Positions 2,830-16,748 of a stretch of DNA of 21,391 nucleotides are shown here, in pieces. Source of the stretch: a virus; the IMG/VR virus record IMGVR_UViG_3300025732_000318, positions 1 through 21,391 of that record; one strand, written 5' to 3'. Position 1 is the first letter of the stretch, and every line of letters begins with the position of its first letter. Below the pieces are notes generated by a model. That model was given only the letters and a program-made list of their open reading frames with translations, did no database searches and was not told the DNA's origin. The position numbers were made by a program, and so were the translations under genes.

Positions 2830-3474
2830 TTATATAATACTTTGAATTAGTTTTTTAAATCCTTCAATAGTTTGAATAGCAGTATTTGCTCCACTACCTA
2901 ATGGACTTGTTACTGGAGAAACATCAGGAGTCTCTAGAACTTTAAAATTCCTACAAGATATTTTGTATTCTCCAGGAACACTAATATTTACGTCCCTTTC
3001 AGATGCAACCGAAAGAGCATCTTGAGCTTGGAACTGAATTGTTGGAGATTCTGCATCAATTGCAGCATTTGAATTTAAATTTATCCATCCTGTATCAGTT
3101 CCATTACCACTTGCATACAAATCAATATCTCTAGCAATTAATCTTATTCTTCCACTTGGCGCATGAAGAACCAAATCACCATTTTCTGCAAGAAAATAAC
3201 CGGCAATTCCACCTACTGGTTTTTCTCCACAAACAACTTGATATGTTGAAGGAGCTACATTGATAATAGATCCATTGAGTACTCCATTTTGAACTAATCC
3301 AATGTAATGAGAATTGGCAAAATTGTGAGGGAAAATACGACGAATCATGACTGCCATTTTGGTGTCATTTTCAGTCGTGTCTCCAAATCTTACCTCACCT
3401 TCTGTTGTTCCAAAAGAATTATAATCAACAGAAGTGGTTTCTCCAGTATTTGGATTCCTATATGATGATGTCAT
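2830..3474 (-). CDS. Probable central spike protein (beta-helical, gp5 C-terminal-like)
   Basis: The 214-residue product has an N-terminal Thr/Glu-rich region. From about residue 98 to 180 it shows alternating polar and hydrophobic strands such as GDLVLHAPSGRIRLIARDID, then AIDAESPTIQFQAQDALSVA and DVNISVPGEYKIS. This pattern resembles the repeating strands of VgrG/gp5-type trimeric beta-helix needles. The extreme C-terminus (IEGFKKLIQSII) is amphipathic. Its start shares one base with the stop of the giant gp5-like gene (TAATG), so the two should be made together. In T4 the OB-fold, lysozyme and needle are one polypeptide, gp5. Here I infer that this separate protein supplies the needle. It could instead be another beta-structured hub accessory. 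Confidence 0.55.
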   Translation of the reverse strand: MTSSYRNPNTGETTSVDYNSFGTTEGEVRFGDTTENDTKMAVMIRRIFPHNFANSHYIGLVQNGVLNGSIINVAPSTYQVVCGEKPVGGIAGYFLAENGDLVLHAPSGRIRLIARDIDLYASGNGTDTGWINLNSNAAIDAESPTIQFQAQDALSVASERDVNISVPGEYKISCRNFKVLETPDVSPVTSPLGSGANTAIQTIEGFKKLIQSII

Positions 3475-14462: not shown

Positions 14463-15272
14463 TCAATAAATTGGTTCTATGATTTTTACTACTCTACCGT
14501 CAGGAGTAATCCACTCACTTTGTCTTTGAGTGTTATTGACATCAACAGATCCAGCTCTTGTATATCCAACAGGAAAATTGGGAAGTCTTGATACATCAGT
14601 AATATCATCTGCCATTAATTTTGAACCACCGATGATATATCTAGAATAAGTAAACGATACTGTACATTTTAATAATTGAGAAGAATCATAAGAAACTGGC
14701 ATTGAATCAATGCTGATTGGAAAAGCATTTAAAAATTGATATTCTAAAGATCTTCCTGTATAATCCTTTTCAAATTTTCTTACATAAATTGATGTTTGAT
14801 AATCTTTTGGAAAATTTACACGATATGAATAATTTAGATTTTTTACTCCAGGTCCAAGAGTATCTGAATTTGTTATCTGTTCATTGGTAACATAAGACAT
14901 CCAGTTTTCAAAATAATATATTATTTCATAATCATGATCTACATAAAATGTAAATGATGCTCTATCATCATACTGTCTGCGATAAGCATGTCTCTCTGTT
15001 ACTCCAGTATAATCATTATTAATTTCATGCGTTGCTAAAGAAGAACCTGGAAGAGATGCTTCTGAACATGACAAAGAAATAAATTCATCTTGAGAATCGG
15101 TGTAATTTCCTAATCCAGCAGCAGATCTATTAGAGAACCAATCTTTTAATGTGTTATTACCACTCAGATTAAATGGTTGAAACCAACACTGATATGTTGA
15201 AGTAAGTGATGGATTTAAAATAGATGCTTTTAAATCCGCCAGAACTTTTTTTGATGGATTGGGTGAAGACAT
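14463..15272 (-). CDS. 54: Baseplate tail-tube initiator, gp54-like
   Basis: The 269-residue protein has a tail-tube-like pattern. A first strand YQCWFQPF is followed by FISLSCSEASLPGSSLATHE, as in tube proteins where the segment binding the next ring is rich in Leu, Pro and Gly. Next come RRQYDDRASFTFYVDHDY and YFENWMSYV, then YQTSIYVRKFEKD and LLKCTVSFTYSRYI. This order of strands, with an aromatic helix between, is shared by gp19, gp48 and gp54. T4 gp54 (320 residues) starts the tube on gp48 and is the best fit, because gp48 is encoded nearby on the other strand. A true tube protein (gp19) would be shorter and lack this context. The gene diverges from the gp4 block across a 44-base gap. 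No strong Shine-Dalgarno sequence is visible. Confidence 0.65.
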   Translation of the reverse strand: MSSPNPSKKVLADLKASILNPSLTSTYQCWFQPFNLSGNNTLKDWFSNRSAAGLGNYTDSQDEFISLSCSEASLPGSSLATHEINNDYTGVTERHAYRRQYDDRASFTFYVDHDYEIIYYFENWMSYVTNEQITNSDTLGPGVKNLNYSYRVNFPKDYQTSIYVRKFEKDYTGRSLEYQFLNAFPISIDSMPVSYDSSQLLKCTVSFTYSRYIIGGSKLMADDITDVSRLPNFPVGYTRAGSVDVNNTQRQSEWITPDGRVVKIIEPIY

Positions 15273-15277
15273 CTATC

Positions 15278-15285
15278 TATAAATA
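15278..15285 (+). promoter_or_regulatory. T4-type late promoter TATAAATA
   Basis: A perfect TATAAATA octamer, preceded by C, lies in the divergent gap between the gp54-like gene and the plus-strand gp4 block. It points right and would start transcripts near 15295. It matches the T4 late consensus read by the gp55/gp33/gp45-modified polymerase; gp33 is encoded in this window. It would serve gp4, gp48 and gp53. Confidence 0.7.
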
Positions 15286-15316: not shown

Positions 15317-15379
15317 ATGGCAGAAAGTATATATAATAATATATCGTTAATTCATGATGCAGAAAATTATAAAGTTTAA
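15317..15379 (+). CDS. 20-residue leader reading frame, possibly the remnant start of an interrupted gene
   Basis: An ATG at 15317 follows a clear Shine-Dalgarno sequence (TAAGGA, about 3-4 bases from the ATG), about 30 bases after the late promoter. It reads MAESIYNNISLIHDAENYKV and stops at 15379. This is the best-placed ribosome site of the whole plus-strand block, yet it opens only 20 codons and overlaps the next reading frame in another frame. It may be a translated leader that delivers ribosomes to the next gene. It may instead be the stranded original 5' end of gp4 or another gene. Chance cannot be excluded. Confidence 0.3.
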   Translation: MAESIYNNISLIHDAENYKV

Positions 15380-15923
15380 TTCAAAAAAATTAAATCAATT
15401 ATTCAATATTTCTTCTTCTGGGGAATTAATTTGCGAATTATATGAAGGAATTTCTGGATGCGAAGGTGAATTAAATCCATTTTATGGAAAGAAACATACA
15501 AAAGAAACTAAAGAAAAACTAAGAAAAATAACATTAGAACTTTACAAGGACGAATCTTTCAAATTGTCTCGTTCAAATTATGGAGAAAAAAATGGTATGT
15601 ATGGTAGTACAAGAACTGGAGAATTGAATCCAATGTGGGGCAAAACTCATTCTGAAGAAACAAGAAAAAAGCAAAGCGAAAAAAGGAAAGAATGGTTTAA
15701 AAATAATGAAAGCCCACATAAAGGAAAACCGTGCTTAGAAAGTACAAAAAAAGCATTATCAGAAAAAAATAGTAAAAAATATAAATTAATTTCTCCAGAA
15801 GGAATGATAATAGAAATAAAAAATCTTACTCAATTTGCAAAAGAAAATAATTTAAACATTGGATGCCTACAACATGTTGTTGCTGGAAGAAATAAATCTC
15901 ATAAGGGATGGACAAATGCCTAG
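15354..15923 (+). CDS. Homing-endonuclease-like protein, NUMOD DNA-binding repeats without visible nuclease domain
   Basis: The 189-residue product is Lys-rich. It carries NUMOD3-type units: GELNPFYGKKHTKETKEKLR (38-57), EKNGMYG (78-84), GELNPMWGKTHSEETRKKQS (89-108) and SPHKGKPCLESTKKALSEKN (120-139). A NUMOD1/IENR1-like helix-turn-helix follows: YKLISPEGMIIEIKNLTQFA (143-162), a loop, then HVVAGRNKSHKGWT. These modules are the DNA-binding tails of GIY-YIG and HNH homing endonucleases. I find no GIY-YIG, HNH or other catalytic motif in the first 37 residues, so the protein looks N-terminally truncated or is a free DNA-binding piece. It has no Shine-Dalgarno sequence at its ATG. It sits between a late promoter and gp4 and overlaps gp4 by 8 bases. 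Strong A richness suggests a separate origin. Confidence 0.75.
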   Translation: MMQKIIKFNSKKLNQLFNISSSGELICELYEGISGCEGELNPFYGKKHTKETKEKLRKITLELYKDESFKLSRSNYGEKNGMYGSTRTGELNPMWGKTHSEETRKKQSEKRKEWFKNNESPHKGKPCLESTKKALSEKNSKKYKLISPEGMIIEIKNLTQFAKENNLNIGCLQHVVAGRNKSHKGWTNA

Positions 15924-16362
15924 TGATTCAAAGTATCATCAAGGATTTTTTCATCCAAAAAATCCAAAAAAGTATAAAGGAAATCCACAAAATATAGTGT
16001 ATCGTAGCAGTTGGGAACTAAGATTTATGAAATGGTGCGACTTAAACGAAAATATTTTAGAATATGGATCAGAAGAATTTTGGATTCCTTATGTTTCTCC
16101 TGTAGATAATCGTGTTCACAGATATTTTCCAGACTTTATTATTAAAGTCAAAGAACAAACTGGAGAAATCAAAACATATGTGATTGAAGTGAAACCAAAG
16201 AAACAAACTGCACCACCAAAACAAAAATCAAGAGTGACAAAATCCTTTCTTCATGAAGCAAAAACTTATGCAGTGAATCAAGCAAAATGGAAAGCAGCAG
16301 ATGAATGGTGTAAGGATAGATTGGTGCAATTTAAAGTCATCACAGAAGAAGAACTATTCTAA
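15916..16362 (+). CDS. 4: Head completion protein gp4 with PD-(D/E)xK-like nuclease motif
   Basis: The start at 15916 gives a 148-residue protein beginning MPSDSKYHQG. An upstream in-frame ATG at 15859 would add 19 residues that are only the other frame of the preceding gene, so I reject it. T4 gp4 is 150 residues, a close length match. Motifs are YRSSWELRF (E34), VHRYFPDF (D73) and VIEVKPK (E91, K93), the arrangement of TnsA-like PD-(D/E)xK nucleases. gp4 acts at the end of head filling so that tails can join. The start lies in the last codons of the NUMOD gene. The stop and the next start overlap as TAATG, so this gene, the 128-residue gene and gp48 form one transcript. Confidence 0.85.
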   Translation: MPSDSKYHQGFFHPKNPKKYKGNPQNIVYRSSWELRFMKWCDLNENILEYGSEEFWIPYVSPVDNRVHRYFPDFIIKVKEQTGEIKTYVIEVKPKKQTAPPKQKSRVTKSFLHEAKTYAVNQAKWKAADEWCKDRLVQFKVITEEELF

Positions 16363-16748
16363 TGGCAGAAAATCAAAACCAATATTCAAGTCTTGTTGGA
16401 TCAAATAGAATTATTGGAATCAAAGATGATCTTAAGATGATGGATGATCCAGAAGAAATGATGATTTTAATTATGGATACATTAAAAGAAATAGAAATAG
16501 TACCTGATGTTGGAAATTATTATACCTTTGTTTATAAGGCAAAAAGCCCAGATATGAAATATGACCAACATCCACTCATCGCATGTCTTGAAGTTCAGAG
16601 ATGGGGATTTAAAGGATTAAATTTTCATTGGGGACAGACAAGAAATTATACTTGGGAAGAAATACCCGGTCAATTGCATCTTGTCAGAAAAAGCGAGATT
16701 AATGATCTACGTGATATTTCATATGCTCTCTTCAGAAGAACCCCATAA
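16362..16748 (+). CDS. Conserved-type phage protein of unknown function between gp4 and gp48
   Basis: The 128-residue protein starts with a polar, flexible segment (MAENQNQYSSLVGSNRIIGI) and continues with an acidic helix rich in Met and Asp (DDLKMMDDPEEMMILIMDTL). The second half is a compact beta region, with YYTFVYKAKSPDMKYDQHPL and a core around LEVQRWGFKGLNFHWGQTRN, followed by YTWEEIPGQLH. It has no signal peptide, membrane segment or enzyme motif. It is translationally coupled to gp4 (TAATG), ends just before the gp48 leader region, and so is likely co-expressed with tail-tube start proteins. I recall an unnamed protein of similar size at this position in T4-like cyanophages. A baseplate or tube-start structural role is likely but unproven. 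Confidence 0.65.
   Translation: MAENQNQYSSLVGSNRIIGIKDDLKMMDDPEEMMILIMDTLKEIEIVPDVGNYYTFVYKAKSPDMKYDQHPLIACLEVQRWGFKGLNFHWGQTRNYTWEEIPGQLHLVRKSEINDLRDISYALFRRTP

Follow-up and report, generated by a model that had tools for sequence, protein, structure and literature searches.

Introduction

In the usual account, homing is driven by a nuclease to the benefit of the gene that encodes it, and a DNA-binding protein alone is unable to start it. The free-standing Seg and Mob homing endonucleases of T4 have genes that lie beside conserved phage genes, overlap them and are patchily distributed. They carry NUMOD-type DNA-binding modules and co-convert the flanks of their insertion sites (intronless homing). 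The tails of I-TevI and I-HmuI consist of NUMOD3 repeats and a C-terminal domain. In the T4-like phage Aeh1, the homing endonuclease gene mobE is inserted within the coding sequence of nrdA, with the genes in pieces, and in T4 MobE drives the trans homing of the defunct I-TevIII (PMC2988022). The gp4 protein has been predicted to have a PD-(D/E)XK fold, for which TnsA or T7 endonuclease I are the best templates (PMC1189080).

Here we describe a gene, NUM, in a stretch of viral DNA of 21,391 nucleotides (IMG/VR record IMGVR_UViG_3300025732_000318), called the window. NUM has the features listed above for Seg and Mob but, unlike them, its family is devoid of a catalytic domain in the 19 homologues scanned, and its target gene is always the same. 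It resembles the tails of I-TevI and I-HmuI, whereas here the tail is the whole gene, with no GIY-YIG or HNH domain and no intron. Like mobE of Aeh1 it is inserted in the reading frame of a T4-like phage gene; in contrast to nrdA, the interrupted gp4 is restored by a start codon that the insert itself brings, and a scar remains of the old start. NUM may also be like I-TevIII, a nuclease-dead mobile gene moved by the cut of another protein, but it lacks a catalytic domain entirely and no recurrent helper was found in 15 NUM-carrying records. The gp4 of the window belongs to the T4 gp4/TnsA-like PD-(D/E)XK family (PF08722), which to our knowledge is not known to act in homing. Neither DNA cutting by gp4 nor a substrate for its nuclease-like fold in T4-like phages is known to us.

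Results

Domain composition of NUM

The window record consists of the 21.4-kb contig only. NUM is our name for its reading frame at 15354-15923 and P0001 that of the encoded protein, which is divided as follows.

15354-15923, plus strand: NUM, 189 amino acids, ATG to TAG, intact; NUMOD-only DNA-binding protein (profile scans, AlphaFold)
Residues 1-37: short N-terminal segment
Residues about 38-126: NUMOD3 repeats
Residues about 127-189: I-HmuI/I-TevI-like C-terminal DNA-binding domain

In Pfam, NUMOD3 was matched with 58.2 bits in three stretches (cut-off 20.4), and GIY-YIG and HNH were absent from the matches of the window protein. The PHROGs matches were homing endonuclease tails only. The NCBIfam profile for group I intron endonucleases, TIGR01453, was matched at positions 77-202 of 215; since the alignment starts at position 77, the catalytic front of the first 76 positions is missing. 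NUMOD3 was found in all members of a 19-member homologue alignment, and a catalytic nuclease family in Pfam (GIY-YIG, HNH or other) in none of the 19, even at E<=1. The initial annotation had described a NUMOD-only gene without a visible catalytic domain, which is borne out by these scans. It had also proposed profile searches with the first 37 residues. This segment showed neither a match to a family in the profile scans nor a conserved catalytic set in the 19-member alignment, and a catalytic domain hidden there was therefore rejected.

In the AlphaFold model (pLDDT 77), residues 1-37 form just a small strand-helix-strand; residues about 30-37 may resemble the final part of a GIY-YIG domain. 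The C-terminal 63 residues (127-189) superpose on the DNA-binding tail of I-HmuI with a Z score of 8.7 and an rmsd of 1.6 A over 62 residues. The I-TevI tail matches more weakly, with a sequence match of E 0.005. Taken together, we regard NUM as related to homing endonuclease tails, mobile and without a nuclease domain. By definition it is not a homing endonuclease, since a test for the catalytic domain showed that it is absent; judged by its sequence record, it works like a homing element.

Position of NUM relative to gp4

The surroundings of NUM in the window are arranged as follows.

14463..15272, minus strand: tail tube protein gene (phrog_45 / Phage_TTP_2; Pfam, PHROGs), native left flank, divergent and upstream
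15278..15285, plus strand: TATAAATA, late-promoter motif in the native tube/gp4 intergenic region
15317..15331, plus strand: scar of the original gp4 start (ATG GCA GAA AGT AT..., MAESI)
15332..15353, plus strand: left edge of the insert, here TATAATAATATATCGTTAATTC (alignment of left edges, 30 distinct copies)
15916..16362, plus strand: gp4, head completion protein with a TnsA-like PD-(D/E)XK fold (Pfam, PHROGs, Foldseek)
15916..16071, plus strand: 5' part of gp4 that arrived with the insert, the co-converted tract (breakpoint test, identity bins)
16362..16748, plus strand: DNA end protector gene (phrog_429; PHROGs), native right flank, downstream of gp4

The upstream gene had been called gp54, a name that is not established, as PHROGs and Pfam identify a tail tube protein. 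This gene is the neighbour in NUM-less relatives, too. NUM had been placed between a perfect late promoter and gp4. The motif TATAAATA does occur at 15278, as the sole exact copy on both strands of the window. However, it also precedes gp4 at the same spacing in the NUM-less contigs L084, L105 and L107, and since these relatives have it in the same place it is the native promoter of the tail tube/gp4 region. NUM sits inside the original 5' end of gp4, whereas the initial annotation had placed it in front of the gene.

In NUM-less relatives, the gap between the tube gene and gp4 measures about 10-56 nt, and in the cultured phage S-SCSM1 the tube gene adjoins gp4 with no NUM between them. The presence and absence of NUM at one site was thus seen in related genomes. 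In the empty sites, gp4 typically opens with ATGGCAGAAAGTATTAAAAGT... (MAESIKSK...) just past the promoter. About 37 nt of the scar region of the window are identical to the gp4 start of the NUM-less L105, and the divergence begins immediately past ATGGCAGAAAGTAT. The scar at 15317 is now read as a mini-ORF, MAESIYNNISLIHDAENYKV followed by a stop codon (15317-15379). At the NUM-carrying loci, the old gp4 start is kept upstream of NUM and is followed by a stop and then by the constant left edge TATAAATAATATGGAATA...TTC, about 35 nt ahead of the NUM start codon. The consensus of this edge in the 30 distinct copies is TATAAATAATATGGAATACTTAATTC. It is probably a late promoter of the insert that is degenerate in the window copy; the TATAAATA motif about 35 nt before NUM is conserved in nearly all copies.

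The scars have a length of about 5-31 codons. They read MAESI in the window, MAESIKSKYK and a stop in L006, MSYKGKYK in L025, MSEKKYHQGLFHPQNPEKYK and a stop in L013 and 31 residues in L023, and a further stranded native gp4 N-terminus upstream of NUM reads MSYKGIYKPEHPQKYIGDPKNIIYRSLWELL and a stop. When scored against shuffles, most of the longer scars reached p about 0.016, which is the floor, whereas the shortest ones match weakly (L001, p=0.049). The matches of L015, L019, L040-L042 and L163-L166 were not significant against the shuffles, some scar types being absent from the comparison set. The MSYKG-type start is the native gp4 start of cultured NUM-less Synechococcus phages; in the probe for this search, the L023 scar peptide supplied about 30 N-terminal residues and a generic gp4-like continuation the rest, so only the N-terminal match was counted.

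The initial annotation was also right that this homing-endonuclease-derived gene overlaps gp4: the gp4 ATG at 15916 is inside the 3' end of NUM, whose TAG is at 15921-15923. The gp4 restart within the 3' end of NUM reads MPxDSKYHQG..., and L013 and L023 carry a second copy of the gp4 start beyond the insert. NUM has taken over the old start codon of gp4 in frame at L041:1424 and L042:3001 and is translated from it (MAKRSYRF.../MAERSYRF...); in both, about 23 middle residues of NUM are missing. The differing junctions within gp4 show more than one insertion or re-joining event. In several cases the left edge and the native gp4 have AAATATAAA in common, which suggests that the insert may have been joined at this short homology.

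A second NUMOD-only family with different ends was observed directly before gp4 (L046:2221-2802 and L206:1168-1749; L044 is the same contig). It has a gp4 scar, MAYRGKFTPKHPKYMN and a stop, upstream and an edge of TATAAATAAT.

Distribution and broken copies

Searches of IMG/VR gave 49 further viral contigs with a NUM homologue of 41-100% identity. In all 49, NUM is directly 5' of gp4, and the intact copies have an overlap of 4-11 nt between the NUM stop codon and the gp4 start. Most relatives are without NUM; the comparison of this junction in relatives with and without the insert, which had been proposed earlier, thus gave a patchy distribution. The identity of NUM to the window protein is often higher than that of gp4 or the tube protein of the same contig, as in L004 with 77% for NUM, 65% for gp4 and 50% for the tube protein. 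In the cultured-phage collection, 122 records had some match to P0001. The matches listed were all homing-endonuclease-like tails with 30-41% identity, and none of them was shown beside gp4; the match in cyanophage B23 sits near a capsid gene, away from gp4. Some NUM copies are broken, by a TAG at codon 7 (L031-L035), by frameshifts (L043) or by loss of the C-terminus (L167), and these nonsense, frameshifted and truncated copies show that NUM is dispensable to the phage.

Recent transfer and co-conversion

In a tree of the nearby hub protein, in which L167 with its truncated NUM was labelled NUM-less, the NUM-carrying phages do not form one clade (AU p=0.0003), and 8 changes, at least 4 of them forced, were counted. 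In six NUM-carrying pairs (L017/L018, L027/L028, L028/L031, L041/L042, L006/L012 and L004/L011), the scar, NUM and the 5' part of gp4 are mostly 97-100% identical, whereas the genes flanking this block are about 50-75% identical. The block shared by the diverged pairs extends from about 60 nt before NUM to gp4 nucleotide about 115-295. The dS values of NUM and gp4 were 0.06 versus 0.81 for L017/L018, 0.02 versus 0.74 for L027/L028, 0.01 versus 0.39 for L028/L031 and 0.03 versus 0.55 for L041/L042, and in several pairs the dS of NUM is 10-40 times below that of gp4. The dN/dS of NUM is mostly 0.07-0.25, and the about 45 intact copies are under purifying selection.

Islands of at least 95% identity were then counted in NUM-carrying pairs with a hub-gene identity of up to 88%. 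They were found for NUM in 9.3%, for gp4 codons 1-38 in 7.6% and for the 3' part of gp4 in 1.5%. In NUM-less control pairs, the two gp4 parts gave 1.9% and 1.6%, so NUM-less phages also swap gp4 by ordinary recombination, without a 5' focus. Neither the contigs, some of which were obtained from related samples, nor the pairs of loci are independent, so pooled p-values overstate the effect, and more weight was given to the individual pairs. The window gp4 itself is a mosaic with a maximum chi-square breakpoint at nucleotide 156 (permutation p = 0.0005). In the first ~156 nt, 54 sites match NUM-carrying phages versus 4; the remainder is mixed and nearer to the NUM-less sisters (12 NUM-carrying versus 16). 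Our reading of these comparisons is that the mobility of NUM is recent, repeated and homing-like, by a gene that has no nuclease.

Proposed mechanism

NUM is probably the DNA-binding part of a homing endonuclease that survives as a nuclease-less mobile gene and spreads through the repair of breaks in gp4. It inserts into the first codons of gp4, stranding the old gp4 start upstream as the scar. The insert ends in a replacement gp4 start that overlaps the NUM stop codon, whereby gp4 stays intact. When cyanophages co-infect a cell, a NUM-less gp4 broken close to its 5' end would be repaired from a NUM-carrying copy, which would contribute the scar and ~115-295 nt from the start of gp4 as well. 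Judged by the shortest right flanks that pairs have in common, the cut would fall in about the first 115 nt of gp4. We infer that a double-strand break starts the transfer and that NUM binds the target DNA. The conservative answer for the cut is a nuclease that would be supplied in trans by another protein.

Alternative explanations and the source of the nuclease

The strongest alternative, to which we give somewhat less than an even chance, is that gp4 is cut by a complete homing endonuclease whose gene lies elsewhere, in the same phage or in a co-infecting one. NUM would then travel passively in the repaired block and might keep its DNA binding to act as a repressor or competitor. The mobilisation of the defunct I-TevIII by MobE in T4 is a precedent (PMC2988022). 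Complete GIY-YIG or HNH homing endonuclease genes are present in some NUM-carrying contigs, and an HNH-NUMOD gene overlaps gp4 in the distant phage L071. However, among the 15 NUM-carrying records, which are partial genomes, GIY-YIG was found in 2 and HNH_3 in 2, at differing places, and no recurrent helper nuclease was found near gp4. A passenger would also not be expected to hold a dN/dS of about 0.1-0.2 over some 45 copies. The L071 gene (L071:2563-3465) is complete; as an ancestor of NUM it was discounted, since it occurs in only one contig and no gp4 scar was seen.

It is rather unlikely that there is no homing at all and that NUM is a useful DNA-binding protein, for example one that, like I-TevI, represses its own late promoter. 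In that case ordinary recombination would have spread NUM, and selection would keep it. The purifying selection on NUM and the late-promoter motif conserved ahead of it would fit such a protein, and I-TevI doubles as an autorepressor (PMC2988022). But the exchange is focused on NUM and the 5' part of gp4 in NUM-carrying pairs and not in NUM-less pairs, and neither the repeated insertion into an essential gene nor the nonsense and frameshifted copies suggest a needed regulator. The role as a regulator that had been raised earlier is possible, but it leaves the repeated insertion and the short exchanged block unexplained.

A special case of the preferred explanation names the nuclease. In this split homing endonuclease, which we propose only tentatively and think unlikely, NUM would recognise and the TnsA-like gp4 would cut the gp4 gene of NUM-less rivals. 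The window gp4 matches the Pfam TnsA-like N domain (PF08722) with 83 bits, and its model (pLDDT 89) has TnsA 1t0f as the top PDB match (Foldseek, E 8e-5). The residues E34, D73, E91 and K93, its catalytic positions, are invariant in 126 aligned sequences, 40 with NUM and 86 without. NUM is always next to gp4 and overlapping it and was found at no other gene, and no NUM copy would need its own nuclease, since the T4-like phages bring gp4. The position at gp4 is, however, equally expected if gp4 is merely the target, and no report known to us describes DNA cutting by gp4. The initial annotation had considered NUM as the C-terminal piece of a split nuclease and suggested a search for a partner. 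The 15 NUM-carrying partial genomes gave no recurrent candidate of this kind, whereas the conserved PD-(D/E)XK protein gp4 could be the partner.

Viral proteins were also found that fuse NUMOD3 to the same Pfam TnsA-like domain, in the order NUMOD3 and then nuclease. NUMOD3 was detected in 18 of 18 of these single-chain proteins and PF08722 in 16. Their profile aligns with NUM residues 35-129 (probability 98.2) and with gp4 (probability 98.7) in colinear order. These proteins demonstrate a viable pairing of the two parts but no joint action of NUM and gp4, and NUMOD3 repeats are promiscuous, being found also with GIY-YIG, HNH and DUF559. A single NUM-gp4 fusion, in L164, was discounted because a run of A is one base shorter there than in L163.

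The single-chain class comprises proteins of about 280 amino acids with an N-terminal CxxC...CxxC that is zinc-ribbon-like, many of them on large viral contigs. Its members are as follows.

L076:2869-3708: NUMOD3-TnsA-like protein
L067:2893-3720: NUMOD3-TnsA-like protein
L240-L268: NUMOD3-TnsA-like proteins
L320: NUMOD3-TnsA-like protein (Bacteroidetes MAG)

The class looks like free-standing homing endonucleases of a type not described before. Among the papers searched, none combined the terms TnsA, NUMOD and homing endonuclease.

It is very improbable that NUM is what decay has left of a GIY-YIG or HNH homing endonuclease; the initial annotation had considered a decayed mobile element. The lack of a catalytic domain and the possible GIY-YIG resemblance of residues about 30-37 would agree with decay, but NUM is conserved over its full length in 50 contigs with a dN/dS mostly of 0.07-0.25, and several of the about 45 intact copies have moved recently. 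Simple decay is thus refuted for the family as a whole and holds true of L043 and L031-L035. An intron or intein that is spliced out to restore the original gp4, as the location of the insert within gp4 might suggest, has next to no chance of being right and was rejected: Rfam gave no intron match, NUM occupies almost the whole insert, and the gp4 start is duplicated beyond it (L013, L023), with gp4 N-terminal residues on both sides, so splicing cannot restore the original gene.

Other mobile genes in the compared contigs

On the other side of gp4, between gp4 and the DNA end protector gene, a GIY-YIG-like homing endonuclease tail was observed (L230, from the L161 contig, 2983-3429), and both sides of gp4 thus attract such genes. 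In L227:789-1523 and L228:1185-1799, GIY-YIG homing endonuclease genes follow an nrdB-like gene, and their 3' ends overlap the start of the next gene as NUM does with gp4. In L226:1-1932, an apparent intein interrupts a UvsX/RecA-like gene and itself contains a NUMOD3 reading frame.

Discussion

NUM, with the DNA-binding part only, has the population signature of homing, namely repeated insertion, a co-converted flank and recent spread. Genes of this kind, derived from homing endonucleases but without a nuclease, may either persist on one that they borrow or have recruited a structural nuclease that is essential. If the split enzyme were real, a mobile gene would carry the target recognition and borrow a cutting subunit that is present in every potential recipient. 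For gp4 itself, the finding points to a possible DNA-related role.
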